DNA of 64,000 nt from Bacillus sp. 7884-1 (GTDB taxonomy: Bacteria; Bacillota; Bacilli; Bacillales; Cytobacillaceae). Made by a program: the position numbers and the translations under genes. The DNA is taken from assembly GCF_002272245.1 (NCBI RefSeq), contig NZ_NPDD01000016.1:1-64000 (forward strand), given 5' to 3'. Of the stretch, positions 7,740-42,017 are shown one piece after another. Each line of letters begins with the position of its first letter. The first letter of the stretch is position 1. Under the pieces are notes generated by a model. That model saw only the letters and a program-made list of their open reading frames with translations. It did no database searches and was not told the DNA's origin.

Positions 7740-8957
7740 TTATGGCAGTATTTCTTCAGTGAAATAATCCAGTACCATACATCCAGCTCCCTGGGCTACG
7801 ATGTTGTAGGCTGCGGTTGATTTTATAATCTGAACATGACTTTTAGGATAGTGCATGAGTCGATTCTTTGCTGTTTCAGAGACCACTTCGTAAAAAAGAG
7901 GTTTCGGGACCAAGGTTCCTCCGCAGACAACGATATCCGGTCGCAAAAGGAAAATTAGATTACTAAGGCCGATGCCAAAATAATAAGCTGCATCCTTCAC
8001 TACCTCAAGGCAAAGAGGGTCTTCTTGCTCAAGAGCATTTAAAATATGATGAAAATCGATTTCATCTACATCATTAATCCTATCTTGAAGGAAAGAAACA
8101 CGATCACGCTTCATCCGACGGACCACTTCGTTACGGATGGCTGGCAAGCTGCTATATGCTTGTAGACAACCATACGAGCCGCATGAGCAACGCCGTCCGT
8201 GTATATCAACTACTATATGTCCCATGGCATCATCCATCTCCATTTTATTACGAACCAATCTACCTTGTAAGATGGTACCGCAACGAATTCCCATATCACT
8301 TGAGACAAAAACTAAATTATCTGTTTCTTTCCAATAGTTTTTACGGTATTCAGCTAATGCTGCTAGATTTGTTCCGTTATCTATGAATACATTAGTATGA
8401 CTATATTGTTGTAAATAGTCGACGATGTTAAGGTTGTCCCAGCCCGCTGCAGGAAACAGCCGTGGGTTTATGATAACCCCAGTTTCTTTGTCAATTGGAT
8501 CAAGAACGCCAATTCCCATTCCCAGCAATTTCTCTCTTTGAATATTGTGTTTGGACAGTAGATCATCGACACATCGGGAGACAAAATTTAATGTGTACTC
8601 TCCCGTGCATTGTGAATCCATCCTTAATTTTTCACTGTCTACGATATCTAATTTTAAATCAAGGAGCAGCACTGTGGTGTATAGGTTGGTGATTTCAACA
8701 CCAATTAGATAATAAGCGCTAGGCTTGATGACATACATCAAAGGTTTACGTCCTCCACTTGACTCCCCAATTCCACTATCGTAGATAAGTCCTTCCTGAA
8801 CAAGCTCGTCCAGTAAACGTGTACATGTCACATGTTTGTATCCAGTAATTTCAGTAAGTGTATTAATCCTGACCGGTCCTAACTTACGAACTAGGCTATA
8901 TAAAAGTTTTAGACTCTTTGTTTTAGGTGATGTTAAGCCTGCAAATTGCTTGAACAT
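7740..8957 (-). CDS. ROK-family transcriptional regulator (XylR/NagC type)
   Basis: About 405 residues from the ATG at 8957, preceded by GGAGG six bases away; a TTG at 8975 is less likely. An N-terminal winged helix-turn-helix (residues about 10-70, ITGYKHVTCTRLLDELV) is followed by a ROK sugar-kinase-like domain with MGIGVLDPID, the zinc-binding CSCGSYGCLQA and a C-terminal GGTLVPKP. The kinase motif DxGxT is degenerate (GVEITNLYT), so the protein is a regulator and not a kinase. It probably senses a sugar. The adjacent divergent gene is a purine nucleoside phosphorylase, an unusual partner, so the target may be elsewhere. Confidence 0.88.
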   Translation of the reverse strand: MFKQFAGLTSPKTKSLKLLYSLVRKLGPVRINTLTEITGYKHVTCTRLLDELVQEGLIYDSGIGESSGGRKPLMYVIKPSAYYLIGVEITNLYTTVLLLDLKLDIVDSEKLRMDSQCTGEYTLNFVSRCVDDLLSKHNIQREKLLGMGIGVLDPIDKETGVIINPRLFPAAGWDNLNIVDYLQQYSHTNVFIDNGTNLAALAEYRKNYWKETDNLVFVSSDMGIRCGTILQGRLVRNKMEMDDAMGHIVVDIHGRRCSCGSYGCLQAYSSLPAIRNEVVRRMKRDRVSFLQDRINDVDEIDFHHILNALEQEDPLCLEVVKDAAYYFGIGLSNLIFLLRPDIVVCGGTLVPKPLFYEVVSETAKNRLMHYPKSHVQIIKSTAAYNIVAQGAGCMVLDYFTEEILP

Positions 8958-28677: not shown

Positions 28678-29331
28678 GTGGAAATGAATAATCTCCCTCC
28701 AATGCTGCTAGATAACATTATCTCTCGTGCGGAGAAACTTAATACAACATTACTAAGTGATGCGATGGGCTGTACGGGTGGTATGGATTATCGAATCAGT
28801 CCTGTTGCAGCTGGGATGAAAGTAGTCGGGACTGCTACCACATTATCCCTTAAGCCTAGTGATAACGTTTCTTTACACGATGCTATTTACTCCGCAAAGG
28901 AAGGGTACGTACTCGTCATAGACGGAAAAGGTGAAACCTCACACGCTTATTTGGGAGAACTATTAACAAGAGCAGCTAAAGCCGTTGGTTTGAAAGGAAT
29001 TGTGATTGATGGGGCTGTCAGGGATAAGGAAGAGCTAGGGGCATTAGGCTTTCCCGTTTTTGCAAAGGGATTTGTTCCGAATGGTCCATTGAAACTTGGC
29101 GGCGGAGAAATAAATGTAACGATAACCTGTGGAGACGTCACCGTTAACCCAGGAGATTTGGTAGTAGGCGATGCAGACGGTGTCACGATCGTACCTAGAC
29201 AACAAATAGAAGAAGTATTTCTTAAGGCAGAAAAAAAGTTAGAATATGAGAAAAATAGAATTCTGGAATTTACATTGTACGAAGAAAAAAGAAAGCGCGG
29301 AGAAACTCAAGAACCTCTTAAAAGAAAATAA
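28678..29331 (+). CDS. RraA-family protein (HMG/CHA aldolase-like)
   Basis: 217 residues starting at GTG 28678 behind TAGGAGGT. Family motifs are STLLSDAMGCTGG-like region near the N terminus (TTLLSDAMG), VVGTATTL, HDAIYSAKEGYVLVIDG, AYLGELLTRAAKAVGLKGIVIDGAVRD and GDLVVGDADGVTIVP. The GELLTRAAK...GAVRD segment holds the metal and pyruvate-enolate residues of 4-hydroxy-4-methyl-2-oxoglutarate/oxaloacetate aldolases. Many RraA-like proteins are misnamed menaquinone methyltransferases. The substrate here is unknown; class II pyruvate aldolase or oxaloacetate decarboxylase activity is plausible. Confidence 0.87.
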   Translation: MEMNNLPPMLLDNIISRAEKLNTTLLSDAMGCTGGMDYRISPVAAGMKVVGTATTLSLKPSDNVSLHDAIYSAKEGYVLVIDGKGETSHAYLGELLTRAAKAVGLKGIVIDGAVRDKEELGALGFPVFAKGFVPNGPLKLGGGEINVTITCGDVTVNPGDLVVGDADGVTIVPRQQIEEVFLKAEKKLEYEKNRILEFTLYEEKRKRGETQEPLKRK

Positions 29332-29453: not shown

Positions 29454-31955
29454 CTAGTTATTTGAACCGTAGCTGATTAAATTCGTGAAAATTCGATATC
29501 CACCAGGAACCTGGGCATTGATTTGACGGTAGAATACTAGGTTGGTGTATAGGAATGTTCCTTCCCCGTATTTAGCCATTAGGATTCCACTGTTGAAAGG
29601 TTCTTCACCAGGGTCTGCCATGGTTACGAATGTTTCATAGTTCGTATCCCATGCAGTTGGGAAGTACAGAGCTCTTTCTTGTACCCATCCATCCCAGTCA
29701 GTATCGTTAATCACATTTGGTTGGTTAAAGAGTTCATGTTCCGGTTGAGTAACTGTAACCTTAGCGTTTTCGTCGGTTACTCGGACACGAATGGAAGGTG
29801 ATCCTATTTCTAATGGATATGGTGGTGTGAATGCACCTCTATTCCATGGATCCCCAGAAGTAACATACTGCATGACTAAATGTCCACCGTTTTCCACATA
29901 TTCAAGCAAACGTGTATTATTTTGCAATACGTCTGGTCTTCCAAGTGTCGACCTGATACCAGCGACAATTGTATCATATTGTGAAAGATTACCAGCTGCT
30001 AGATCTTCAGGTGTTATCTTCGAAATATCAAATCCAGCATTTTGTAATGAATCCGCAATCGTATCAAAGCCGCTGTCAATATAACCAACCTTCAGATTAT
30101 CTGGCTTTAATAACTCAAATGCCACACCATTTATGTTAGATGGATACATAAAGTAAGAGTCATTAATGTGATCATATTTAATTTCTTGTACGGTAGTATC
30201 AAATGTCTTACCATCTGCTTCTGCAATCGCTGCGATGGTGAAATTACCATCATCAACTGTAGAAGGAGGAACTAGCGTGAACGACACTTCTTTTTCTTCA
30301 AATCTTTTAGTAAAGTTCACATTTTCCGCTGCTGGTTCACTCGTCCAGCCTTCAGGAAGTTTTAAAGAAACCGCAGCGTTTTTAGAGCTATTCGCATAGT
30401 TTTTCACTCGAACAGTGACCGGAATTTCATCTTGAACATCCGCAGTGTTAACTGTGATATTCACTGGGTCCGGTGTAACTCCTAATTCAGGGAGTACACT
30501 CACTGTATTGTCTAAGTCGATGACAGAAGTTGTTTTCACACCGTTTTCCTTAAATGTTAGTTGTGCCTTTATGACAGCATCTCCATAAGGTTGGTAATAT
30601 TCTGCATCAGAAGGAACCGTGACATTAAAGGTAACAGTTTTGGATTCACCTGGCTTTAGGTGCTTTACTTGATTTACACCTTCATGTTTCCAATTATCAG
30701 GAGTAAGTAAAGCTGCTTCAATATGTTGGATTTTTTCCTTTCCTTCATTTGTAACCTTAACAGCCACTTGAGTTTTTTCACCTTGAGTCAATACATAAGA
30801 ACTGATTTCCATATCAACAGCAAGGCTGGAAGAAACGAAACTTACCTGTTGCAGCTGTTCTGCTTTTAGTTCGAGCTTGTGGAGCAAGTCGTTTTTAACA
30901 CTAGCATCCAATTTCGCTGAGTTTGTACTAGCTATTAATTTTTGAACAGCCCCTAAAGCCTTTTGGGATTCAGGTAAAATCGCTTCACGGTCTGGATACA
31001 GCTTAATAATACCTTCTAATTGGTTTTGTAATGTATCCAACTGCTCGCTTATGTTCGCAGCAGGAATGATATCTGCCCATGCATGGAAGTCATAAGGAAT
31101 TCCAGCAAATAAATCATTTGAATCTGTTTGAACAGCTGATTTAATTAATTTTTGATGGGATAGTCTTGGAGCAACGGGAATATCATTTCCCATACCTTGG
31201 CTCTTGTGCAGATACCTAGATGCTTCACCAAGCTGTGGGTAACTCATTCCGTAGATAGGATCAAAGTCACCAATTTCAATTGATGTGGTGGCAGTTCCAG
31301 CATTAGCCGGTAAATAAAACTTTTTGATTTGCCAAGGCTCTAATCCATTTTCCAATTGTTCAGGGAATACGTTCGGATCAGCAGCATCTTTAAATGCTTT
31401 TTCTGATAATACAGCCATCAATCGATGGTGTCCATGTTGGCTGTCAACATTTTCGAAAGAAGGCATCACAATATCTGGCTGATACGTTCTAATAAATTTG
31501 ATGAGACGTTCGTACGTAACTTCTTCTCCCCACTTTTCAAGGGTTTCATCTGGTGACTTTGAAAAACCAAAATCATAGATCGCATCGGATGTTGTTTCAC
31601 TTAAATGATAGGCTTTAACACCATTTACCTTGGCTGCTTCAATCATTTCATTGGAGCGAATAATTCCAAGGGCATTTCCTAATTCATTCCCAATGGCATT
31701 TTGACCACCTTCACCACGGTTAGCAATTAAACTAGCTGTTTTAACTCCTAATCCACGTGATAAATAGGCAAGTAAATCACTGCGTTCATCGTCGGGATGT
31801 GCTCCTGTGTTTAAGAAAGTAACGGTAGTATCTAGAGGTTTAACAACATTCCAAAGCTCAACATCAGCTTCACTTTGTTCTTGTGCAAGACTAATTGGAG
31901 GTAGTAGGGAAGCAAGTAATAGAATGGACATTAATAAACAGAAAAGTTTCCTCAA
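29454..31955 (-). CDS. Secreted PIG-L/LmbE-family deacetylase with C-terminal accessory domains
   Basis: 833 residues from a TTG start behind GAAAGGGG. A signal peptide (LFCLLMSILLLASLLPPISLA) is followed by the PIG-L domain at about residues 40-330: zinc motif GAHPDDER, and the later histidines of DSQHGHHRL. Two beta-sandwich (NEW3/CARDB-like) stretches follow at about 380-590 (ALLTPDNWKHEG, LKLPEGWTSEP), then a ThuA/glutamine-amidotransferase-like domain to the end (VGYIDSGFDTIADSLQ, YDTIVAGIR, GGHLVMQY). PIG-L enzymes remove acetyl groups from N-acetylglucosaminyl compounds. It diverges from the ROK/ABC operon, with a shared operator type, so it probably trims the operon's substrate outside the cell. 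Confidence 0.87.
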   Translation of the reverse strand: MRKLFCLLMSILLLASLLPPISLAQEQSEADVELWNVVKPLDTTVTFLNTGAHPDDERSDLLAYLSRGLGVKTASLIANRGEGGQNAIGNELGNALGIIRSNEMIEAAKVNGVKAYHLSETTSDAIYDFGFSKSPDETLEKWGEEVTYERLIKFIRTYQPDIVMPSFENVDSQHGHHRLMAVLSEKAFKDAADPNVFPEQLENGLEPWQIKKFYLPANAGTATTSIEIGDFDPIYGMSYPQLGEASRYLHKSQGMGNDIPVAPRLSHQKLIKSAVQTDSNDLFAGIPYDFHAWADIIPAANISEQLDTLQNQLEGIIKLYPDREAILPESQKALGAVQKLIASTNSAKLDASVKNDLLHKLELKAEQLQQVSFVSSSLAVDMEISSYVLTQGEKTQVAVKVTNEGKEKIQHIEAALLTPDNWKHEGVNQVKHLKPGESKTVTFNVTVPSDAEYYQPYGDAVIKAQLTFKENGVKTTSVIDLDNTVSVLPELGVTPDPVNITVNTADVQDEIPVTVRVKNYANSSKNAAVSLKLPEGWTSEPAAENVNFTKRFEEKEVSFTLVPPSTVDDGNFTIAAIAEADGKTFDTTVQEIKYDHINDSYFMYPSNINGVAFELLKPDNLKVGYIDSGFDTIADSLQNAGFDISKITPEDLAAGNLSQYDTIVAGIRSTLGRPDVLQNNTRLLEYVENGGHLVMQYVTSGDPWNRGAFTPPYPLEIGSPSIRVRVTDENAKVTVTQPEHELFNQPNVINDTDWDGWVQERALYFPTAWDTNYETFVTMADPGEEPFNSGILMAKYGEGTFLYTNLVFYRQINAQVPGGYRIFTNLISYGSNN

Positions 31956-32023
31956 TTTTTGAAACCCCTTTCATTATTAACAGAATTAATCTACCCAATT
32001 CTCCTTTCCTATATGTATTTTAG

Positions 32024-32044
32024 TTAGTTAGGATTACTAACTAA
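32024..32044. promoter_or_regulatory. Probable ROK operator, deacetylase side
   Basis: TTAGTTA, seven bases, TAACTAA: a palindrome about 70 bases upstream of the deacetylase start. The same half-sites with the same spacing recur at 32287-32307 in front of the ROK gene. Confidence 0.75.
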
Positions 32045-32248
32045 TGAGACAAAAGCATTTACAACTATGATTATATTACCTTTCAGAATATTGTAAATAT
32101 TACCAAAAGACTATCTAATATTTGGAAATAGGTCCATGGGAGGAGTGATAAAGTAATGGGTACCAGTATTCATGCAGGTTTAAGAATATGGGTTTTACAC
32201 CATTTTTACCTAATTAATCTTAATTATCTAAATTTTTCAAATTGTGTA

Positions 32249-32277
32249 TTGTGGACGTTTCCAAATTAAGGTATAGT
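32249..32277 (+). promoter_or_regulatory. SigA-type promoter of the ROK/ABC operon
   Basis: TTGTGG at 32249-32254, 17 bases, then TATAGT at 32272-32277. The predicted start of transcription (about 32284) lies directly in front of the second palindrome, which is where a repressor would block. Confidence 0.6.
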
Positions 32278-32286
32278 GAAGTTAAA

Positions 32287-32307
32287 TTAGTTAAACTTAC
32301 TAACTAA
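32287..32307. promoter_or_regulatory. Probable ROK operator, operon side
   Basis: TTAGTTA-N7-TAACTAA, matching 32024-32044 in both half-sites, in spacing and in four of the seven spacer bases (TTAC ends both spacers). It lies at about +3 to +23 of the predicted promoter. Confidence 0.78.
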
Positions 32308-32333
32308 CAATTAGAATTAAGGCCGTGATGATG

Positions 32334-33545
32334 ATGAATAAGAAACTATCTAATGCAGAAATACGGATAAATAATAAAAAGATTGTACTGCAATGTATAA
32401 AAAATCATCAACCTATTTCTAGAGCAGAAATCGCGGAAAAGGTCCTTTTTAGTAAGCCAACCATTTCCTTACTGGTCGATGAATTAGTTAGAGAGAATTG
32501 GGTTCACGAAAAAGGTATCGGAGAATCCTCTTCACAGGGTGGCAGGAGACCTATTCATCTTTATTTTAATGAAAAGGCTGCCTATGTCATCGGGGTGGAT
32601 ATCGGTGGCACCAAAGTAAAAACCGTCATTACTGATCTTGGGGGAACGATTATTTGTGCAAGCAGCTTTCATACTAGGAAACATTTAGAAAATGGGTTAT
32701 TTAAACAAATTCAAAAAGAAGTACAAGAGATGATTCTAAGGAATCAGTTGGATAAAGGTTTGATTCTCGGCATGGGAGTAGGAGTACCAGGTATCACTGA
32801 AACGAAAACGGGGGTTGTTGTTGAAGCTCCAAGCTTAAAATGGGTTCGTTATCCGTTTTTAATAGAAGCTGAACGATTCTTTTCCTTCCCTGTATATGTT
32901 GATAATGATGTCAATATAGCCGTTCTTGGCGAACAATGGTTAGGCAGGGCTAAAAATAAGGAGAATGTACTGTTTATATCTGTGGGAACAGGGATCGGCA
33001 GTGGAATTATTATTCATAATCAGCTATATCGAGGATCCTCTTATGCGTCTGGAGAGCTAGGATATATGGTTACAGATAAAAATGATATGAAAAATGAGTT
33101 CAAACCTATCTTTCATCGATATGGTTACCTAGAAAGTGTTGCAGGTGGAAAAGCGATTGGGAGAAAATTCACACAGCTTGTCCAGCAAAACAAGAGTCAT
33201 CCTTTATGTAAAGAAGCGGCAGAAACGGAGCTGACGGGTGAGCAGGCTTTCTTGTTTGCGAAATCAGGAGATGTAACCGCTCTTTCTGTTGTGGAAAATG
33301 CCATTGAGCATTTAGCCTATGGAATCATCAATGCTGCTTCTCTATTAAATCCAGAAGTTATTATTCTCGATGGAGGAGTGATGAAATCAGCTGATTTCAT
33401 TCTTCCAAGATTACAAAAAATTGTTTATCAATACCTTCCTAGTTCGGTAGAAATATATCGTTCACAATTAGGGGAAAATGCAGGTGTTTTAGGAGCTGTT
33501 TCATTGTTCCTGCGGGAACACGACAGCATCTTAAATGAGGTTTAA
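32334..33545 (+). CDS. ROK-family transcriptional regulator (NagC/Mlc type)
   Basis: About 403 residues. Four start codons lie in a row (GTG 32325, ATG 32328, 32331, 32334); the last best fits AAGG. An N-terminal winged helix (ISRAEIAEKVLFSKPTISLLVDELV) is joined to a ROK domain with VIGVDIGGTKVKTVI (a complete ATP-site DxGGTK, unlike the ROK protein at 7740), GVGVPGITETKTG, VYVDNDVNIAVLGEQWLG and VGTGIGSGIII. The usual CxCGxxGC zinc cluster is absent; the corresponding region reads FHRYGYLESVAGG. It heads the ABC/creatininase/lyase/kinase operon and most likely represses it and the divergent deacetylase. Confidence 0.88.
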   Translation: MNKKLSNAEIRINNKKIVLQCIKNHQPISRAEIAEKVLFSKPTISLLVDELVRENWVHEKGIGESSSQGGRRPIHLYFNEKAAYVIGVDIGGTKVKTVITDLGGTIICASSFHTRKHLENGLFKQIQKEVQEMILRNQLDKGLILGMGVGVPGITETKTGVVVEAPSLKWVRYPFLIEAERFFSFPVYVDNDVNIAVLGEQWLGRAKNKENVLFISVGTGIGSGIIIHNQLYRGSSYASGELGYMVTDKNDMKNEFKPIFHRYGYLESVAGGKAIGRKFTQLVQQNKSHPLCKEAAETELTGEQAFLFAKSGDVTALSVVENAIEHLAYGIINAASLLNPEVIILDGGVMKSADFILPRLQKIVYQYLPSSVEIYRSQLGENAGVLGAVSLFLREHDSILNEV

Positions 33546-33639
33546 ATTGGTAACTTTTTGGATGTTTTTACTTTGGTTCTTAGTGGGGAATATTTGCCTA
33601 CTTTAAGAATAAATAAATTTCATTTATAGGGGGAGTAGT

Positions 33640-34728
33640 ATGTTTAAGAAGAAAAATTTATTGGTGTTCTTGATAGCTGTACTGATGCTTTTCGTGTCAG
33701 CCTGTTCGAGCAGTTCCTCTGGCGGGGAAAAGCCAGCGAAAGAAAATGATAGTGGAAAAAAAGAAGAAACAGTTGAACCTAGTGGTAACCTTGTTATTTA
33801 TACTGCCCGTGACCAAACGATTGTCGACAAAGTGGTTGATATGTTCAACGAAAAATACCCTGATGTTCAGGTAGATGTATTAACCATGGGAGCACAGCAA
33901 GTTCTTGAACGTGTTCGTGGAGAAAAGGCCAATCCTCAAGCTGACTTTTGGTGGGGTGGAACACAATCTGCTTTTATGACAGCAGCAAATGAAGATCTGT
34001 TAGAACCATTTAAACCAAGCTTTGATGCAAGTATTTTACCAGAACATAAGGATTCAAAAGGCCTTTGGTATGGAGAAATGCTGCTGCCAGAAGTAATCAT
34101 GTACAACTCTGACATGCTTAAGAAAGACGAAGCTCCACAGGATTGGGATGATTTACTTGATTCTAAATGGAAAGACCAAATCATCATTCGTGGTGTATTA
34201 GCATCAGGAACAATGAGAACCATCTACTCTGCTATGATTCATGAACAAGGTGCCGATAATCCTGAAGCGGGCTATGAGTGGCTTAAAAAGCTTGATGCCA
34301 ATACAAAAGAATATGCACAAGATCCAACAAACCTATACTTAAAGCTTGCTCGTCAAGAAGGTTCTATTTCTCTTTGGAATCTACAAGATATTCTAATCCA
34401 AAAAAATCAGCACAACCAACCATTTGATTTCGTGTATCCAGAAAGTGGAGCACCAATTTTAGTTGATGCTGTTGGTCTTGTAAAGAAAGCGAAAAACCTG
34501 GAAAACGCAAAATTATTCTATGAATTCTTGTTTGACCCAGAAACTCGTACCACTTTGGCTGAAGATTTATACCAAATTCCTACTCGTACAGACATCGACA
34601 AATCCAAAATGCCAGATTGGTATCAAGAGCTTGATTTGAAGGCATTAGATCTTGACTGGGAAGTAATGGCGGGAAAAGAAGCTGAGTGGATGCAGCATTG
34701 GGATGAAAATATTAAAGGTAAAAATTAA
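33640..34728 (+). CDS. ABC transporter substrate-binding lipoprotein (Fe3+/AfuA-type)
   Basis: 362 residues. The lipoprotein signal ends in LMLFVSACSS, so Cys-22 region is lipidated. After a Ser/Glu/Lys-rich linker the binding domain begins LVIYTARDQTIVDKVVDMF and continues through PQADFWWGGTQSAF, LLPEVIMYNSDML and PILVDAVGLVKKAKN. This is the cluster of Fe(III)-type binding proteins, members of which carry ferric iron, phosphonates or sugar phosphates. The iron-ligand tyrosine pair is not evident, so an organic ligand is more likely. It is the first transporter gene and is followed by two strong hairpins, suggesting that it is expressed more than the ATPase and permease. Confidence 0.9.
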   Translation: MFKKKNLLVFLIAVLMLFVSACSSSSSGGEKPAKENDSGKKEETVEPSGNLVIYTARDQTIVDKVVDMFNEKYPDVQVDVLTMGAQQVLERVRGEKANPQADFWWGGTQSAFMTAANEDLLEPFKPSFDASILPEHKDSKGLWYGEMLLPEVIMYNSDMLKKDEAPQDWDDLLDSKWKDQIIIRGVLASGTMRTIYSAMIHEQGADNPEAGYEWLKKLDANTKEYAQDPTNLYLKLARQEGSISLWNLQDILIQKNQHNQPFDFVYPESGAPILVDAVGLVKKAKNLENAKLFYEFLFDPETRTTLAEDLYQIPTRTDIDKSKMPDWYQELDLKALDLDWEVMAGKEAEWMQHWDENIKGKN

Positions 34729-34743
34729 TAGAATACCATGAAA

Positions 34744-34772
34744 GGGGTGAAGGAGTTTTTTCACCCTCTTTT
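34744..34772 (+). terminator. Terminator-like hairpin after the binding-protein gene
   Basis: GGGTGAA (34745-34751) and TTCACCC (34760-34766) form a stem followed by TCTTTTA. It is probably a partial terminator within the operon. Confidence 0.6.
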
Positions 34773-34813
34773 ACAAGGTAGGAAGGCATGGTTGCTTTCC
34801 TACCTTGTAAAAG
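34768..34813 (+). repeat. 17-bp perfect intercistronic hairpin
   Basis: CTTTTACAAGGTAGGAA (34768-34784) pairs exactly with its complement at 34797-34813 over a 12-base loop. It overlaps the tail of the preceding terminator-like hairpin. Such structures after binding-protein genes protect the message end and set subunit ratios. Confidence 0.8.
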
Positions 34814-34874
34814 AATAAGCCCTATTAAAGGCTTTTCTTTATGGCTCATTTTTAAGAACAGCGAGGTGTTAGTG

Positions 34875-35945
34875 TTGAAAAGTGTAAGACTTGACCACGT
34901 TAGTAAAATGTTTGGAACCGCCATTGGAGTAGAGAACGTTGATATCGATGTGAAACCTGGAGAGTTTTTTACCTTTTTAGGTCCATCTGGATGTGGAAAA
35001 ACAACGACATTACGGATGATTGCGGGATTCTATTATCCGTCAAAAGGGAAGATTCTTTTTGATAACAAGGATGTCACTACCCTGCAGCCTAATAAACGGA
35101 ATATTGGAATGGTCTTTCAAAACTATGCCCTTTTTCCTCATATGACGGTCTTTGAAAATATTGCATTCGGTCTTGAAGTTCGTAAAATGTCAAAAGCGGT
35201 GATAAAAGAAAAAGTCGAACGTGCCCAAAAGCTTGTTCATCTTGAAAAATATGGGACTCGAAAAATTAATGAACTTTCAGGTGGTCAACAACAGCGTGTT
35301 GCCTTAGCTCGCGCGTTAGTCATTGAACCAGATATTCTTCTTCTTGATGAACCGCTATCCAACTTAGATGCGAAATTGCGTGAGGAAACGAGATTAGAGA
35401 TTAAAAGACTTCAAGTTGAACTAGGTGTGACGACTATATATGTTACCCACGATCAGACAGAAGCCATGACGATGTCCGATCGAATTATGGTTATGAAGGA
35501 AGGAGTCGTACAACAAATTGGCACACCGCAAGAAATTTATAACCTACCTACCAATCATTTTGTTGCTTCCTTTATTGGAGAATCAAATATCCTTGAAGCT
35601 GAAGTCGTTGAAGTCAAAGCTGATGCCGTCAAGGTGAAATTGGATGACGACATCTTCGTTCAAGGAAGTATGACACAATCTGCAAATGGAAAAAAGCTAA
35701 AGGTAGGAGAATCTATTAAAGTTTCGATTCGTCCTGAAACGGTGTATGAGGGAACCGGTCCTAATCAGGTGACAGGCACCGTTCAATTTGTGGAATTTAC
35801 CGGGGTAAGTATCAATTATGTTGTTAAAGTAGGTTCTAACATCATGAAGGTCATGATTATCAATAAAGGAAATGAAATCCTTAAGCGCGGTGATTCTATT
35901 ACCCTTCACGTACCTGAAAAAGGAATCTACTTAATTGGCGAATAG
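34875..35945 (+). CDS. ABC transporter ATP-binding protein (PotA/FbpC type)
   Basis: About 356 residues from TTG 34875, six bases after GAGGTG; the frame remains open upstream to 34788 but that part lies in the intercistronic hairpin. Walker A GPSGCGKTT, Q-loop MVFQNYALFPHMTV, signature LSGGQQQRVALARAL, Walker B ILLLDEPLSNLDAKLR and switch His in VTHDQTEAMT are all intact. The C-terminal third (about residues 240-356) is a TOBE-type regulatory domain. It powers import through the fused permease that follows 11 bases later. Confidence 0.93.
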   Translation: MKSVRLDHVSKMFGTAIGVENVDIDVKPGEFFTFLGPSGCGKTTTLRMIAGFYYPSKGKILFDNKDVTTLQPNKRNIGMVFQNYALFPHMTVFENIAFGLEVRKMSKAVIKEKVERAQKLVHLEKYGTRKINELSGGQQQRVALARALVIEPDILLLDEPLSNLDAKLREETRLEIKRLQVELGVTTIYVTHDQTEAMTMSDRIMVMKEGVVQQIGTPQEIYNLPTNHFVASFIGESNILEAEVVEVKADAVKVKLDDDIFVQGSMTQSANGKKLKVGESIKVSIRPETVYEGTGPNQVTGTVQFVEFTGVSINYVVKVGSNIMKVMIINKGNEILKRGDSITLHVPEKGIYLIGE

Positions 35946-35956
35946 GATGTGAAAGA

Positions 35957-37684
35957 ATGAGTGCAAATCAAAATAGGGCCGTGCACGATAACTGGTGGTC
36001 TCGGCTGACACGTTCAAAATATTTTGTCTATGTTTTAATTTCACCACTGTTTTTAGTTCTTTTAGCGTATGTTATTTATCCATTTTACCAAACCTTTCTT
36101 CAAAGTGTAGTGGGTGAAGAAGGAGGAACTCTCGAAAATTACCAACGCTTTTTTGGTTTAACAAGTACTGCCAACCTTGAAGCGCTTTGGACAAGTGTAT
36201 ATATTTCGGTCATCAGTGTGATTACCTGTGCTATTGTTGGTGTCACCATGGCTTTTTTAATGGAACGATACGAGTTTCCAGGAAGAAAACTGCTTTCGGT
36301 CTTAATTCTGGTGCCGATGGCATTGCCTCCGCTTGTAGGTGTGTTATCTTTTACCTTTCTTTATGGTGAAAGTGGTATTATCCCAAGGGCTTTTCAAGTA
36401 CTACTTGATCTTGAAAAAGTACCGTTTTCATTAAAAGGTGTTATGGGTGTCATCGTTGTTCATACCTTCACCATGTACACGTACTTTTATCTAACTGCAG
36501 CAGCAGCGATTAAAGGTCTCGATCCTTCCTTGGAAGAAGCAGCAACAAGCCTTGGGTCCGGAAGAATCCGCATTTGGTTGAAGGTTATCCTGCCTATGTT
36601 AACTCCGGCGTTAATCGCATCTTCCTTACTTGTATTTATGATTTCAATGGCGTCCTACACTGCTCCATTAATGTTTGGTGTGGAACGGACGATGACGATG
36701 CAAATCTATTTATCTCGTACAAATGGAAGTCTCGATATGGCAGCAACACAATCTACTATTCTTTCGATTGTATCCATTTCCTTCTTAATTTTAATGAGAT
36801 GGTACCAAGGACGACGGAACTATCAAAACCAAAGTAAGGGAATCAGTGTTCATCGCACCGAATTACGTTCCCAATTTGCAAAATACATGTCTATGTTTCT
36901 TTCATTTATAGGAGTCATTATATTAATGCTTCCAATCCTTGTTCTTGTCCTGATTTCTTTTTCCGTAGACGGGGAATGGACGGTTCAAGTGATTCCAACT
37001 GCTTATACATTGCAGCACTATATTGATTTATTTACGGATGAGCGAACATGGCGTCCAATATGGAACAGTTTACAGATGAGTTTTGTGGCAACAGCCGGAA
37101 ATATTTTGTTCGGTGTGGCGGCTGCCTATGCCATGGTACGTACGAGGTTTAAAGGAAAAGCCTTACTGGATATTTTAATTATGGTTCCATGGGCACTTCC
37201 TGGTACCGTTGTAGCGGTTAACTTAATTGCTGCATTTAGTGAACCTAGTGTATTCAGCTTTAATCAAGTCTTAATTGGTACTTTTTGGATTTTACCATTA
37301 GCGTATTTTGTCCGGCATTTACCACTTATTTTCCGTTCGACCTCCGCAGCATTGATGCAAATGGATGAATCTATAGAGGAAGCGGCACGAAGCTTAGGTG
37401 CAAATTGGTGGTACACGTTTAGAAGAGTGGTTGTTCCAATGGCCTTCTCGGGTATTCTCGCAGGAACCTTGCTGGCTTTGGTTCAAGGGATAGGGGAATT
37501 TGTTGCCTCCATCTTAATTTATAGTACCTCAACTATGCCGTTATCTGTTGCGATTTTCCAAAAAATGTATGCCTTCCAATTCGGAACAGCTTGCGCCTAC
37601 GGTGTGCTGCAAATCATTCTGATTATTATAGTACTTTTTGTTTCGCAAAAAATAACAGATGGAAAAGCAGGATCAGCCATTTAA
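35957..37684 (+). CDS. ABC transporter permease, two fused domains (FbpB/PhnU-like)
   Basis: 575 residues, about 12 membrane segments in two homologous halves joined near residue 300. Each half carries an EAA loop that meets the ATPase: SLEEAATSLGSGRIRIWLKVILP in the first, and SIEEAARSLGANWWYTFRRVVVP in the second. This fused layout is typical of Fe(III)-type and 2-aminoethylphosphonate importers. GATGTGAAAGA lies before the ATG. It is part of the seven-gene run beginning at the ROK regulator. Confidence 0.93.
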   Translation: MSANQNRAVHDNWWSRLTRSKYFVYVLISPLFLVLLAYVIYPFYQTFLQSVVGEEGGTLENYQRFFGLTSTANLEALWTSVYISVISVITCAIVGVTMAFLMERYEFPGRKLLSVLILVPMALPPLVGVLSFTFLYGESGIIPRAFQVLLDLEKVPFSLKGVMGVIVVHTFTMYTYFYLTAAAAIKGLDPSLEEAATSLGSGRIRIWLKVILPMLTPALIASSLLVFMISMASYTAPLMFGVERTMTMQIYLSRTNGSLDMAATQSTILSIVSISFLILMRWYQGRRNYQNQSKGISVHRTELRSQFAKYMSMFLSFIGVIILMLPILVLVLISFSVDGEWTVQVIPTAYTLQHYIDLFTDERTWRPIWNSLQMSFVATAGNILFGVAAAYAMVRTRFKGKALLDILIMVPWALPGTVVAVNLIAAFSEPSVFSFNQVLIGTFWILPLAYFVRHLPLIFRSTSAALMQMDESIEEAARSLGANWWYTFRRVVVPMAFSGILAGTLLALVQGIGEFVASILIYSTSTMPLSVAIFQKMYAFQFGTACAYGVLQIILIIIVLFVSQKITDGKAGSAI

Positions 37685-37699
37685 AAGGGGGGGATCTCA

Positions 37700-38431
37700 T
37701 TGAAAGCATGTGATGTTCATGGAAGAGACCTACATTCGCTTGCGCAGGCAACATTTGCTGTTGTTCCATTAGGGAGTTTTGAGTACCACGGTCCGCATTC
37801 CCCTTTAGGGACGGATATTGTTCTAGCAGAAGGATTTGCAAATCTGATTGATTCTAGCTTAGGCGGTGCCGTGTTCCCAACGGTTCCTTATACAGCTTGT
37901 CCTGGAAAAACCAACAAATATAAAGGGACCATTCCGATTCGTCCAAGCATAATTCAAGAATATTTAATTGATATTACGCTGGGAATTATTGAGCAGGGCA
38001 TTAAGAAACTTATTCTACTGAATGCACATGACGGAAATATGGGAGTTTCTCGAACGGTAGCGGAATATGTAACAGGCAAGCATCCGGACGCAAGCTTCTT
38101 ATTAGTGAACTGGTGGCAAATGGTTGCAATCGACGCTGCAGAAGAAATTGGTTTTGAAGGTACAAAAGGCAGAGGGCATGGCGGACCATACGAAATGTCT
38201 GCTGTGAAAGCGTTTCGTCCTGATTTAGTACATGTAATCGATGCGGATAAAGAGTTTAAAGAGGAGCATCCTCTCTCTAATTACCCATACATTCTTGTAG
38301 AAGGAACTCCAAAGGCATGGGATGGTTATACAGGGCTTATTCAGCAAACCTCTTATGAAAAAGGCAAGGTAATTGTTGAAAAAGCATCGGTAAATATGAA
38401 TGATTTAATCAAAAACTGGCTTGAATACTAA
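37700..38431 (+). CDS. Creatininase-family amidohydrolase
   Basis: 243 residues from TTG 37700 behind GGGGGG. Metal-binding motifs of the family are all present: GSFEYHGPHSPLGTDIVLAEGF near residue 24 (Glu, His, Asp), LILLNAHDGNMG (a variant of NGHGGN, with Asp in place of the first Gly), and GRGHGGPYEMS (Glu). Members hydrolyse cyclic or linear amides, for example creatinine, formamidopyrimidines and the mycofactocin precursor. Here the gene sits between an importer and a lyase, so it probably cleaves an amide bond in the imported compound. The variant residues suggest an unusual substrate. Confidence 0.87.
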   Translation: MKACDVHGRDLHSLAQATFAVVPLGSFEYHGPHSPLGTDIVLAEGFANLIDSSLGGAVFPTVPYTACPGKTNKYKGTIPIRPSIIQEYLIDITLGIIEQGIKKLILLNAHDGNMGVSRTVAEYVTGKHPDASFLLVNWWQMVAIDAAEEIGFEGTKGRGHGGPYEMSAVKAFRPDLVHVIDADKEFKEEHPLSNYPYILVEGTPKAWDGYTGLIQQTSYEKGKVIVEKASVNMNDLIKNWLEY

Positions 38432-38454
38432 TCAACTCGAAGGGATTGACCAAT

Positions 38455-39978
38455 GTGAAACCCTCACTTAGAGAGCTAATTTTAAAAAAAGAAGGTACAA
38501 CTTTTCCTTCTAAAACCTATACATCCATGGTTCTTGAACCAGCCTATGATGAAGCAAAGCAACAATTTATTGAATCAATGGTGGAGATTCATAATGCCCA
38601 TTTGATCATGCTCGTAGAACAAGGGCTTGTTGGAAGAGAAGAGGCTCAAAAAATTGCGAAAGCCGTTTCTAACTTGGATATGGAAGATGTTAAAAGAAGA
38701 AGCTACACTGGTGAATTTGAGGACTTATTTTTTGAAGTCGAGCATTCTTTAATTGAAGATGCAGGAGATATTGCTGGAAACCTTCATATTGCAAGAAGCA
38801 GAAATGATATGGGTATTGCGATTTACCGCATGACCCTGCGTAAGAAGCTTTTAGTATTGGTGGAAAAGGCGTTAAACCTTCGCGAGGCCCTTATCGAATT
38901 GACAGATGAACATAAAGAAACCGTGATGATCGGTTATACACATACCCAGCAGGCGCAGCCAACAACATTGAGTCATTATTTAAATGCGATGACCGATATG
39001 CTTACACGTGATATCTATCGGATGCAGGCAGCCTACAAAACGGTCAATCGCAGTAGTATGGGAGCAGCTGCCTTAACAACATCAGGATTTGCGATTAATC
39101 GAGAACGTATGAAAGAACTCCTTGGTTTCGAGGAGATGATTGATAATGCTTGGGATGCTGTTGCAGGCGCAGATTATATAGCGGAGAGTGCTACCGCTGT
39201 TCAGTTATCAGCACTAAATTTAGGAAGATCCATGCAAGACTTCTTATTATGGGGTACACAGGAGTATGGTGCATTTCTTCTTTCGGCACCATACGTGCAA
39301 ATTAGTTCAATCATGCCGCAAAAACGAAACCCGGTTTCAATTGAGCATATGAGGGCCCTTTTATCTAGTGTAGCAGGGGATTGTCAAACAGTCTTACTAA
39401 TGGTCCATAATACACCCTTTGGAGATATTGTTGATACAGAGGATGATATGCAGCCTTATATCTGGAAAGCAATTGAAAGATTAGGCGGAATTTATGATTT
39501 ATTAACGTCTGTTTTACTCACGATGGAGGTTAATAAAGAAACCCTTCTGAAAAGAGCAAAAGAAAGCTTTGCAAATGTGACTGAATTGGCCGATACCATT
39601 GTCCGAAAAGATGGATTATCCTTCCGTCAGGCCCACCATGTGGTTAGTTTAACGGTTAAGGAATTGATGAATAACGGAAAAACATCATTAGAATCCTTAA
39701 CTTTGGAACTTTTAAACGATCAATCAAAAAATGTAGCAGGAAAGAAATCTGTTCTAACAGAAGAAGAATTAAAACAATGCCTAAGCCCTGAATACTTTGT
39801 TCAAATCCGTGATTTACAAGGTGGACCTAGCCCAAGCAGAATGGAAAAAACAATTCAAGTCCGAATACAGGAACAGGAAGAATTAGCAAGCTGGTTAAAT
39901 GAGAGACAAGATCACCTTACTTCATCCACTTTAAAGGTTAAGGAGATTATTACGAATTGGACTGGAGCACATGAATAA
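38455..39978 (+). CDS. Argininosuccinate lyase-like enzyme (aspartase/fumarase superfamily)
   Basis: About 507 residues from GTG 38455, nine bases after AAGGGA; TTG 38446 abuts that site. The family motifs are NLHIARSRNDMGIAIYRM, GYTHTQQAQPTTLSHY (catalytic His) and SSIMPQKRNPVSIEHMRA (catalytic Ser loop). Biosynthetic ArgH is about 460 residues and reads QKKNP, so this is a divergent paralogue, and no arginine genes are nearby. The superfamily releases fumarate from N- or O-linked succinyl/malyl groups; EDDS lyase is an ArgH-like member that degrades an aminopolycarboxylate. Its stop overlaps the kinase gene by eight bases. Confidence 0.85.
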   Translation: MKPSLRELILKKEGTTFPSKTYTSMVLEPAYDEAKQQFIESMVEIHNAHLIMLVEQGLVGREEAQKIAKAVSNLDMEDVKRRSYTGEFEDLFFEVEHSLIEDAGDIAGNLHIARSRNDMGIAIYRMTLRKKLLVLVEKALNLREALIELTDEHKETVMIGYTHTQQAQPTTLSHYLNAMTDMLTRDIYRMQAAYKTVNRSSMGAAALTTSGFAINRERMKELLGFEEMIDNAWDAVAGADYIAESATAVQLSALNLGRSMQDFLLWGTQEYGAFLLSAPYVQISSIMPQKRNPVSIEHMRALLSSVAGDCQTVLLMVHNTPFGDIVDTEDDMQPYIWKAIERLGGIYDLLTSVLLTMEVNKETLLKRAKESFANVTELADTIVRKDGLSFRQAHHVVSLTVKELMNNGKTSLESLTLELLNDQSKNVAGKKSVLTEEELKQCLSPEYFVQIRDLQGGPSPSRMEKTIQVRIQEQEELASWLNERQDHLTSSTLKVKEIITNWTGAHE

Positions 39979-40924
39979 GAACACCATTAAACTGCTCGCG
40001 GTCGATGGTGGCGGCACGAAAACATTGGCTGTCCTTGTTAATGAAAATGGAACAATTCTTGGTAAAGGAAAGGCAGGTGCTTCTAATTATCAGGTAGTAG
40101 GGGTGGAAGCTGCCAAAGAGGCTTTGGTTGAAGCTATTCTTGCTGCCTTTAAAGACGCAGGTGGTTTGATGGCTGTGGAAAAAGCAGTATTTGCACTAGC
40201 TGGAATTGATACGGCAAAGGATGAAAAAGTCGTAGCAGATGTGGTTCAGCATGCAGTTAATGAATTGTCGATCGAGATTGGAAGTTTAGTAGTAGAAAAT
40301 GATTGCCTATCTGCCTTATTAGGAGCTACCCAAGATAAAGCTGGCATCCTCTTAATCGCCGGAACAGGCTCTATTGTGTACGCTCATGACGGGAATAAAC
40401 AAATTGTCCGTTCAGGTGGGTGGGGACACCGAGTTGGTGATGAAGGAAACGGCTATTGGATTGGAAAACAAGCCATTCAGTCTGTTTTAAAAATGCAGGA
40501 TGGACGTGGAGAAGAAACGATTTTGTCTCGGCTTGTATTGGATAAATTTAGTTTCGATAAAATTGAGGATTTATATAATTGGACTTATAGTGAATCCTAT
40601 TCTGTTGACGATGTTGGAGCCCTTGCTGCTGTAGTGGATGAGGCTTATCGTTTAGGGGATGCAGTTAGTATACGAATCTTAGATCATGCAGTGAATGAAC
40701 TAATACTGCTCCTAAAAACAGCTATTGTAAAAGGTGGTATCGAGCAGGATGATTTTGAATTAATTTTGCAAGGCGGAGTTTTCTTTCACAATGCTTATAT
40801 AAAAGACCAAGTTAGTGAAAGAATTCAACAAATTGCTCCAAATGTAAAAATCATCACATCTATCGAAGAACCGATTTGTTACATTATCAAGCGTGGTTTG
40901 AATTACTGTAGCAGTCTGCAGTAA
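39971..40924 (+). CDS. N-acetylglucosamine kinase-like protein (BadF/BadG/BcrA family)
   Basis: 317 residues, full length for the family. The N-terminal phosphate loop is LLAVDGGGTKTLAVLV, followed by FALAGIDTAKDE, VVENDCLSALLGA, GILLIAGTGSIVYAHDG, and RSGGWGHRVGDEGNGYWIG. These match eukaryotic NAGK-like and bacterial MurK-type kinases that phosphorylate N-acetylglucosamine, N-acetylmuramic acid or glucosamine. It is the last gene of the operon and would turn the released amino sugar into its 6-phosphate for central metabolism. No nagA or nagB lies nearby. Confidence 0.88.
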   Translation: MNKNTIKLLAVDGGGTKTLAVLVNENGTILGKGKAGASNYQVVGVEAAKEALVEAILAAFKDAGGLMAVEKAVFALAGIDTAKDEKVVADVVQHAVNELSIEIGSLVVENDCLSALLGATQDKAGILLIAGTGSIVYAHDGNKQIVRSGGWGHRVGDEGNGYWIGKQAIQSVLKMQDGRGEETILSRLVLDKFSFDKIEDLYNWTYSESYSVDDVGALAAVVDEAYRLGDAVSIRILDHAVNELILLLKTAIVKGGIEQDDFELILQGGVFFHNAYIKDQVSERIQQIAPNVKIITSIEEPICYIIKRGLNYCSSLQ

Positions 40925-41222: not shown

Positions 41223-42017
41223 GTGTTGAAATCCGGTAATAAATCAACCAGAGTCATGTGTATGGATACAACAACGGGGGAAGAAATTGAACAGCCTGCA
41301 GATATTGTGGTGTTAACAAGCTATGTATTTAATAATGTTCGGTTATTATTACAATCGGGCGTTGGCCGTCCATATGACCCGGTGTCTGGGACTGGGGTGA
41401 TTGGGAAAAATTATGCCTACCAAGTCCAAAAAGGAAGTGCAACCGGCTTCTTTGAAAAGGAAGAATTTAATACTTTTGCTGGTGCAGGTGCACTCGGCAT
41501 GACGGTGGATGATTTTAACAAGGTCCCAAAAGGTACTCCTTCATGGGGTAAAGAATTTAAAGCTAATTCGGTCAAATATGCAAATCGGGTTTTATCCGTT
41601 GGCGGACAAGGAGCAAGTATGCCATTTAAGCATCATTATCTTGACCTTGATCCGACATACAAGGATGAATTTGGCGATCCGTTAATTCGGATTACCTATG
41701 ATTTTGAAGAGCAAGACCGCCAACTAGCTAAGTATTTATCGGAACGATGCAAAGAAATCATGAACGAAATGGGCGCGGATCATATCGATAAGATGGAGGA
41801 ACTGTGTCCTTATAATATTACCACCTATCAATCCACTCATAACACAGGCGGTATCATCATGGGCGCAGACCCAAATTCATCTGCCGTAAATAATTATTCG
41901 CAAATATGGGAAGCTGAAAATGTGTTTGTAGTTGGCGCCTCAGAGTTTGGAAAAACATTATCCGAATTTAGACGAACAGCCACTTCGATCATCGATGAAG
42001 AAGAGGAAATCTTCTAA
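41223..42017 (+). pseudogene. C-terminal remnant of a GMC-family oxidoreductase
   Basis: 264 codons matching the C-terminal half of Bacillus GMC oxidoreductases: QPADIVVLTSYVFNNVRLLL, SGTGVIGKNYAYQVQKGSATGFF, THNTGGIIMGADPNSSAVNN, and ENVFVVGASEF. The N-terminal FAD-binding half with GxGxxG is absent, and 41180-41222 contains no upstream coding continuation. The end departs from the family after GASEF (normally N-x-G-x-NPTGT), so the 3' end is also damaged. It lacks a ribosome site. It cannot be a functional FAD enzyme and is most likely a decaying fragment. Confidence 0.85.

Follow-up and report, generated by a model that had tools for sequence, protein, structure and literature searches.

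Here we describe a gene module in a 64,000-nucleotide stretch of the Bacillus sp. 7884-1 genome (positions 1 to 64,000 of contig NZ_NPDD01000016.1; hereafter the window, from contig C16 of the 6.0 Mb genome G000). A gene for a large secreted PIG-L deacetylase is divergent from an operon encoding a ROK regulator, an ABC importer, a creatininase-family enzyme, an ArgH-like fumarate lyase and a BadF-type sugar kinase. We lean towards the view that this is a carbon-scavenging module for N-acylglucosaminyl-malates, i.e., bacillithiol (Cys-GlcN-malate, in which GlcN is glucosamine), its conjugates or its precursor N-acetylglucosaminyl-malate (GlcNAc-malate). The genes are as follows:

29454..31955, minus strand: secreted PIG-L (LmbE-type) deacetylase/amidase, 833 aa, with an NPCBM-associated domain (Pfam)
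32325..33545, plus strand: ROK-family regulator with a MarR-type DNA-binding domain (Pfam ROK 177.7 bits, MarR 29.7)
33640..34728, plus strand: substrate-binding lipoprotein (Pfam SBP_bac_6)
34788..35945, plus strand: ABC transporter ATPase (Pfam ABC_tran, TOBE_2)
35957..37684, plus strand: fused ABC permease (two Pfam BPD_transp_1 stretches)
37700..38431, plus strand: creatininase-family amidohydrolase (Pfam Creatininase, PF02633)
38446..39978, plus strand: ArgH-like fumarate lyase, putative GlcN-malate lyase (Pfam Lyase_1 146.7 bits, ASL_C2 59)
39971..40924, plus strand: BadF-type sugar kinase, putative GlcN kinase (Pfam BcrAD_BadFG 159.2 bits)

All eight open reading frames (ORFs) are open, with positions and divergent layout as in the original prediction for this DNA, and Pfam agrees with the family that it gave to each. 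The permease and creatininase genes are 15 bases apart, the creatininase and lyase genes 14, and the lyase and kinase genes overlap by 8. The annotated ATPase ORF probably begins too early, with the true start further in, because the ATPases of relatives mostly have 359-367 aa.

The reactions and substrates that we infer are these. The secreted PIG-L enzyme would take the N-acyl group off outside the cell, the ABC importer would take up GlcN-malate, the lyase would eliminate the sugar from C2 of the malyl group to give fumarate and glucosamine, and the kinase would convert glucosamine to glucosamine-6-phosphate. N-acyl removal inside the cell could be the task of a cytosolic BshB2-type amidase in relatives and perhaps of the creatininase-like enzyme here, while the ROK protein would control both divergent units. 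It is an even call whether the lyase represents a new fumarate-lyase subfamily, in which a glycoside is opened through malate-side elimination, and, with PIG-L, importer and kinase, forms the first bacillithiol catabolic pathway, scavenging the thiol of other bacteria for carbon, nitrogen or (via the freed cysteine) sulfur.

Bacillithiol is the main protective thiol in many Gram-positive bacteria. Its synthesis and the detoxification of its conjugates have been described, and in the portions of that literature available to us GlcN-malate is said only to be presumably recycled; the openly licensed PMC papers that we searched yielded no description of a GlcN-malate lyase or of bacillithiol catabolism. 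If our reading is right, low-molecular-weight thiols would be nutrients exchanged between bacteria (the large PIG-L is spread over 11 family groups of Bacilli), a lyase-type route would be added for opening a glycoside, and the annotations "argininosuccinate lyase" and "creatininase" in such clusters would be corrected.

Conservation of the gene module

A query with the lyase alone retrieved 24 loci of named genomes, and in 11 of these the lyase is accompanied by the full set of PIG-L, ROK, lipoprotein, ATPase, permease, creatininase and kinase genes. Three more lack only the kinase, three (Ureibacillus) have the kinase alone, one has PIG-L alone and six have no partner. Carriers of the cluster, some of them missing the kinase, include Neobacillus niacini, Fredinandcohnia, Robertmurraya, Cytobacillus, Bacillus timonensis, B. 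methanolicus and Paenibacillus sedimenti, and in this company the host genome looks Neobacillus-like. In P. sedimenti (L057) the PIG-L gene lies within the operon, flanked by the permease and creatininase genes, which is evidence, apart from the divergent promoter, that PIG-L belongs with the set.

Across 398 Bacilli genomes, surveyed with E limits of 1e-60 for PIG-L and 1e-85 for the lyase, PIG-L is present in 56, the lyase in 73 and both in 54 (Fisher p 9e-48, not corrected for kinship). The two genes start no more than 15 kb apart in 51 of the 54 genomes (G366, G562 and G332 being the exceptions; in G365 the distance was measured from a second PIG-L copy), and only two PIG-L genomes, G457 and G500, have no lyase match. 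The original prediction had asked for a genome search of this kind and had made its pathway reading depend on the neighbours being conserved together, as they are. The gene arrangement at this locus is not due to chance, and the module is real. The large PIG-L gene is in tandem duplicate in L184, L185 and further survey genomes, and in L155 (genome G205) a stop codon splits it into two ORFs in an otherwise complete cluster.

Subtypes were counted among 87 lyase ORFs longer than 440 aa from hand-chosen stretches, in which the same strain may recur, with six partners (PIG-L, ROK, lipoprotein, permease, creatininase and kinase) sought within a radius of 11 kb. The counts are rough, since with our simple ORF caller a long antisense ORF can mask a gene, as happened to the lyases in L159, L168, L178 and L192 and to BshB2-like genes in L186 and L190. 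All six partners accompany 12 of the lyases, and three lack the kinase alone. Nine have PIG-L, ROK and importer without creatininase or kinase; another seven have the kinase alone (two of them, L070 and L179, with a different importer), i.e., lyase and BadF kinase occur as a unit in some loci. Other mixtures are found for 19, and 37 have none of the six partners. Among these 37 are deletion remnants (L038, L039, L043 and L088), a DctM-linked clade (L084, L085, L086 and two in L181), the distant L087, and L068, where BshB2 and an importer are present. The core seems to consist of PIG-L, importer and lyase, with kinase and creatininase optional.

In the deletion remnants (the four above and L051) the lyase is kept while importer, creatininase and kinase are gone; in L051 and L043 the final creatininase codons, recognised by eye, still precede it. 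The remnant lyases nest in a 17-row set with 11 full-operon lyases and that of the window (support 96, the inner branching being poorly supported). Pairwise dN/dS, the ratio of nonsynonymous to synonymous substitution rates, is 0.06-0.14 with operon and lone lyases pooled, so the lyase stayed under purifying selection once the importer was lost, which would fit use on a substrate made inside the cell.

Other surroundings were recorded as well. Lone lyases of the genus, at about 50% identity, were set aside as a source of context, the neighbours scanned at several being unrelated (RCC1 repeats, spore permease, XylR_N, formyl transferase). An EamA-type transporter gene adjoins the lyase or lies in its gene run, with PIG-L absent, at L055, L182, L080, L175 and L093 (by domain scan) and at L054, L056 and L173 (by cluster). 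At L059, L060, L174 and L180 an Amidohydro_2 gene and genes for a sugar-type importer come after the lyase (by domain scan at L060, by cluster at the others). The lyases of L084, L085, L086 and L181 form a separate ArgH-like clade (loop GHSRD or similar), whose neighbours are a GntR regulator, an NMT1-like binding protein and a permease of the DctM type (by domain scan at L085, by cluster at the others). In L062, a ThuA-domain gene (8165-8890) is divergent from the lyase, which is followed by importer permease genes.

At the edges of the window set, an RraA gene (28678-29331) was considered as a member and rejected, having no counterpart in other loci, many of which extend only about 1 kb beyond PIG-L. 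Downstream of the kinase, 41223-42017 encodes the C-terminal part only of a GMC oxidoreductase (264 aa; Pfam). In L040, the region from the kinase to the next shared gene holds a 571 aa ORF and two more ORFs, so that the window strain may have a deletion directly after the kinase.

The lyase and its relatives

The lyase carries three signatures of the fumarate-lyase (aspartase/fumarase) superfamily, SRND at 118, YTHTQ at 164 and SSIMPQKRNP at 287, and SRND, TH.Q and SSIMPQK are kept in all 87 related lyase ORFs. A longer signature, HNTP[FY]GDI[VN]DTEDD[ML]QP, is found in 76 of the 87, with the DctM-linked clade making up five of the 11 exceptions. Substrates of this superfamily are S-configured, which the L-malate in bacillithiol suits.

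Since the lyase passes the argH equivalog model TIGR00838 (348.2 bits, cut-off 279.5), it could be read as a second argininosuccinate lyase to which its neighbours are unrelated. We regard this as highly improbable: the neighbours are conserved, and the genome has a separate argG-argH pair elsewhere, with scores of 565 and 666.6 bits. As far as gene content goes, the presence of this pair does not count against the original prediction, which would have fallen with a lyase that complements an argH mutant and prefers argininosuccinate. Moreover, the loop YNKDxQEDK, which we take to be the leaving-group loop of ArgH that binds arginine and which the host's own ArgH carries, is found, like NPD, in none of the 87 related ORFs; the window lyase has GDIVDTEDDMQP and NPV instead.

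Among solved structures, the closest chains are 6rx8 (1.2e-66) and 6g3d (5.5e-66), followed by 2e9f (2e-56). All three are labelled argininosuccinate lyase in the structure file, but we take the first two to be ethylenediaminedisuccinate (EDDS) lyase. This kinship, and an importer that resembles iron-type importers, would favour a natural aminopolycarboxylate, for instance a chelator resembling EDDS, as the compound cleaved, which was the second candidate of the original prediction. That candidate keeps its structural relatives but has no gene context, leaving PIG-L, the kinase and the BshB2 links unexplained, and EDDS lyase positions D290 and Y320, which differ between 6rx8 and 6g3d and presumably belong to the amine pocket, align with V and I in the window lyase. 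We give it hardly any credence.

Alternatively, the lyase might strip S-(2-succino) groups as the S-(2-succino) lyase 2SL does, with the module salvaging succinated thiols, e.g., S-(2-succino)bacillithiol. According to the part of PMC9706529 available to us, a lyase class I enzyme acts in this way on N-acetyl-S-(2-succino)cysteine (N-acetyl-2SC), and a BshB2-type amidase could conceivably release the cysteine adduct. However, among the genes of the window set Pfam found neither an acetyltransferase nor a peptidase-type gene, and the kinase, the sugar-type importers and a GH4 gene in one relative (see below) would go unexplained; this alternative seems improbable to us.

Links to bacillithiol

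BshA couples GlcNAc to L-malate, and bacillithiol contains L-malate, as stated in the portion of PMC4360819 at our disposal. L068, L070 and L179 have, next to the lyase, a bshB2 gene (deacetylase/conjugate amidase; 284-295 bits, cut-off 195) together with a DUF1806 gene; L068 and L070 are in the window's genus group, L179 in another family group (f22). In B. subtilis, we take yojF (DUF1806) to adjoin yojG/bshB2 likewise. Above-cut-off bshB2 is found in 190 of 193 family genomes, and two matches only in G113 and G116, the genomes of L068 and L070, each of which has one copy at the lyase; G417, which holds L179, has three matches, one at the lyase. Another eight loci have a small PIG-L gene adjoining the kinase; it is most like BshB2, whose cut-off it does not reach (98-120 bits). 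An initial guess of NagB for the small gene 3' of the kinase was dropped, as the gene is a PIG-L. Three more BshB2-like genes were located by coordinates: those of G474 and G234 are some 1 kb away from the lyase, and that of G386 comes 1 kb after it. Among called loci, BshB2-family or BshB2-like PIG-L genes occur in 11 and creatininase in 16, and their joint presence in just two hints at related jobs. In G500, which has PIG-L and no lyase match, a GH4 gene (nearest the alpha-galactosidase subfamily, 341 bits, under the cut-off of 486) is the first gene of an operon that also encodes ROK and a sugar-type importer and runs divergently from PIG-L. The presence of a glycosidase in a cluster that has no lyase fits a glycoside substrate, as a single case.

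Gene context supports the original proposal that an amino-sugar conjugate is imported and dismantled, through bshB2 and DUF1806 at the lyase, the lyase-kinase unit, the GH4 gene of G500 and the ROK-type palindromes described below. It likewise favours GlcNAc-malate or a bacillithiol-like molecule, the candidate originally named first, given bshB2 with DUF1806 in three relatives and duplicate bshB2 in just two of 193 genomes. Another amino-sugar conjugate with an N- or O-linked succinyl group, not derived from bacillithiol and handled in a similar enzyme order, is unlikely, but deserves serious attention: the kinase, PIG-L, ROK and sugar-type importers indicate an amino sugar and leave the aglycone unnamed, and two genomes with lyase clusters, G205 and G241, have neither BshC nor BshB2. 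Against it, the bshB2 copies at the lyase point to bacillithiol, and no comparable natural amino sugar bearing a malyl or succinyl group is otherwise known to us.

Besides the TIGR00838 score, several observations weigh against bacillithiol scavenging. G205 and G241 would be pure scavengers, or their substrate would be something else. BshC co-occurrence was rejected as a strong test, since BshC is present in 334 of the 398 genomes, so that finding it in 71 of the 73 genomes with the lyase (Fisher p 1.6e-4, with no correction for kinship) is a weak excess. In G457 neither the lyase nor GH4 lies near PIG-L. To these are added the 37 partnerless lyases, the subtype without creatininase and kinase, and three points detailed below: the unexplained place of the creatininase, two replaced ligand residues in the lipoprotein, and the window's cre position.

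Partner proteins, regulation and known systems

The window PIG-L scores 57.7 bits with Pfam PIG-L and 65.8 with NPCBM_assoc, and has a signal peptide identified by eye. HPDD at residue 53 and HGHH at 174 match the HxDD and downstream His motif of LmbE/PIG-L metallohydrolases, of which characterised LmbE-type members work on an N-acylglucosamine core (PMC4101496, in the sections accessible to us). Its best NCBIfam match, TIGR03446 (mycothiol-conjugate amidase), is below cut-off (42.7 bits against 277), and it is not recognised as BshB1 or BshB2 (TIGR04001, 19.1 against 182.5; TIGR04000 not among the matches listed). A structure predicted without alignment had a predicted local distance difference test (pLDDT) score of 35.8 and was not used. 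The creatininase belongs to PF02633 (144.6 bits, cut-off 31.3) and falls short of the creatininase equivalog TIGR04448 (84.4 against 235). It is missing in 22 of 37 loci holding PIG-L and lyase, which weakens the amide cleavage originally assigned to it, and its role in our scheme is unexplained. The kinase is a BcrAD_BadFG family member nearest to the N-acetylmuramic acid (MurNAc)/GlcNAc kinase 8zo3 (E 1.3e-41), and is below cut-off for the GlcNAc kinase NagK (NF046058, 112.2 bits against 370).

By sequence and by fold (model pLDDT 87.5), the solved proteins nearest to the lipoprotein are P5PA, AfuA and VcA0625, i.e., it is closest to sugar-phosphate and pyridoxal phosphate (PLP) binders. AfuA D206 and the SGT site are kept as D250 and S189-T191, invariant in 28 of 28, while H205 and E229 are replaced in the alignment by Q and L (for the roles of these ligand residues, see the available text of PMC4546632). 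With these two replacements, hexose-6-phosphate is not a likely ligand.

Three candidate regulatory sites were located by pattern search:

32020..32044, no strand assigned: ROK-type palindrome, TTAGTTAG..CTAACTAA, on the PIG-L side
32287..32307, no strand assigned: second ROK-type palindrome, directly 5' of ROK
32249..32263, plus strand: degenerate CcpA catabolite-responsive element (cre)-like position, off consensus in the window

Among 18 PIG-L/ROK intergenic regions from chosen relatives, the palindrome, to which we infer that the ROK protein binds, is found on either side in 16 (at both promoters in eight), with a shuffle mean of 0.003; the pattern was derived from the same related regions, so that the count overstates independence. 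A cre-like site is present in eight of 18 regions with both strands counted (shuffle 0.03), and six such sites are on the forward strand, 77-84 bases 5' of ROK. The window's own position does not match the CcpA consensus. Together, palindromes and cre-like sites would fit an inducible, carbon-repressed catabolic unit.

Compared with known systems, ArgH shares with the window lyase the superfamily, SRND, TH.Q and SSIMPQK, and the window lyase scores above the ArgH model cut-off, but the NPD and YNKDxQEDK loop of ArgH are missing from all 87 related lyase ORFs. EDDS lyase (6g3d and 6rx8, if we identify them correctly) is nearest in sequence and of the same fumarate-releasing superfamily, and differs at two pocket positions and in gene neighbourhood. 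2SL of the yxe loci has superfamily and catabolic fumarate release in common with the window lyase; the partners here are sugar-related, and no yxe gene was found by Pfam in the window set, to which that search was confined. The closest solved relative of the kinase, 8zo3, is a MurNAc/GlcNAc kinase of the BadF family, and glucosamine would be the substrate here. The AfuABC and P5PA importers resemble the window importer in the sequence and fold of the lipoprotein, which keeps D206 and the SGT site of AfuA but not its H205 and E229. Finally, in the bacillithiol system (BshA, BshB1/BshB2, BshC, Bca), the available descriptions have GlcN-malate made or presumably recycled and name no enzyme that breaks the malate-sugar link; biosynthesis and conjugate detoxification share with our module the use of PIG-L family enzymes and, in three relatives, the BshB2 and DUF1806 genes that lie beside the lyase.

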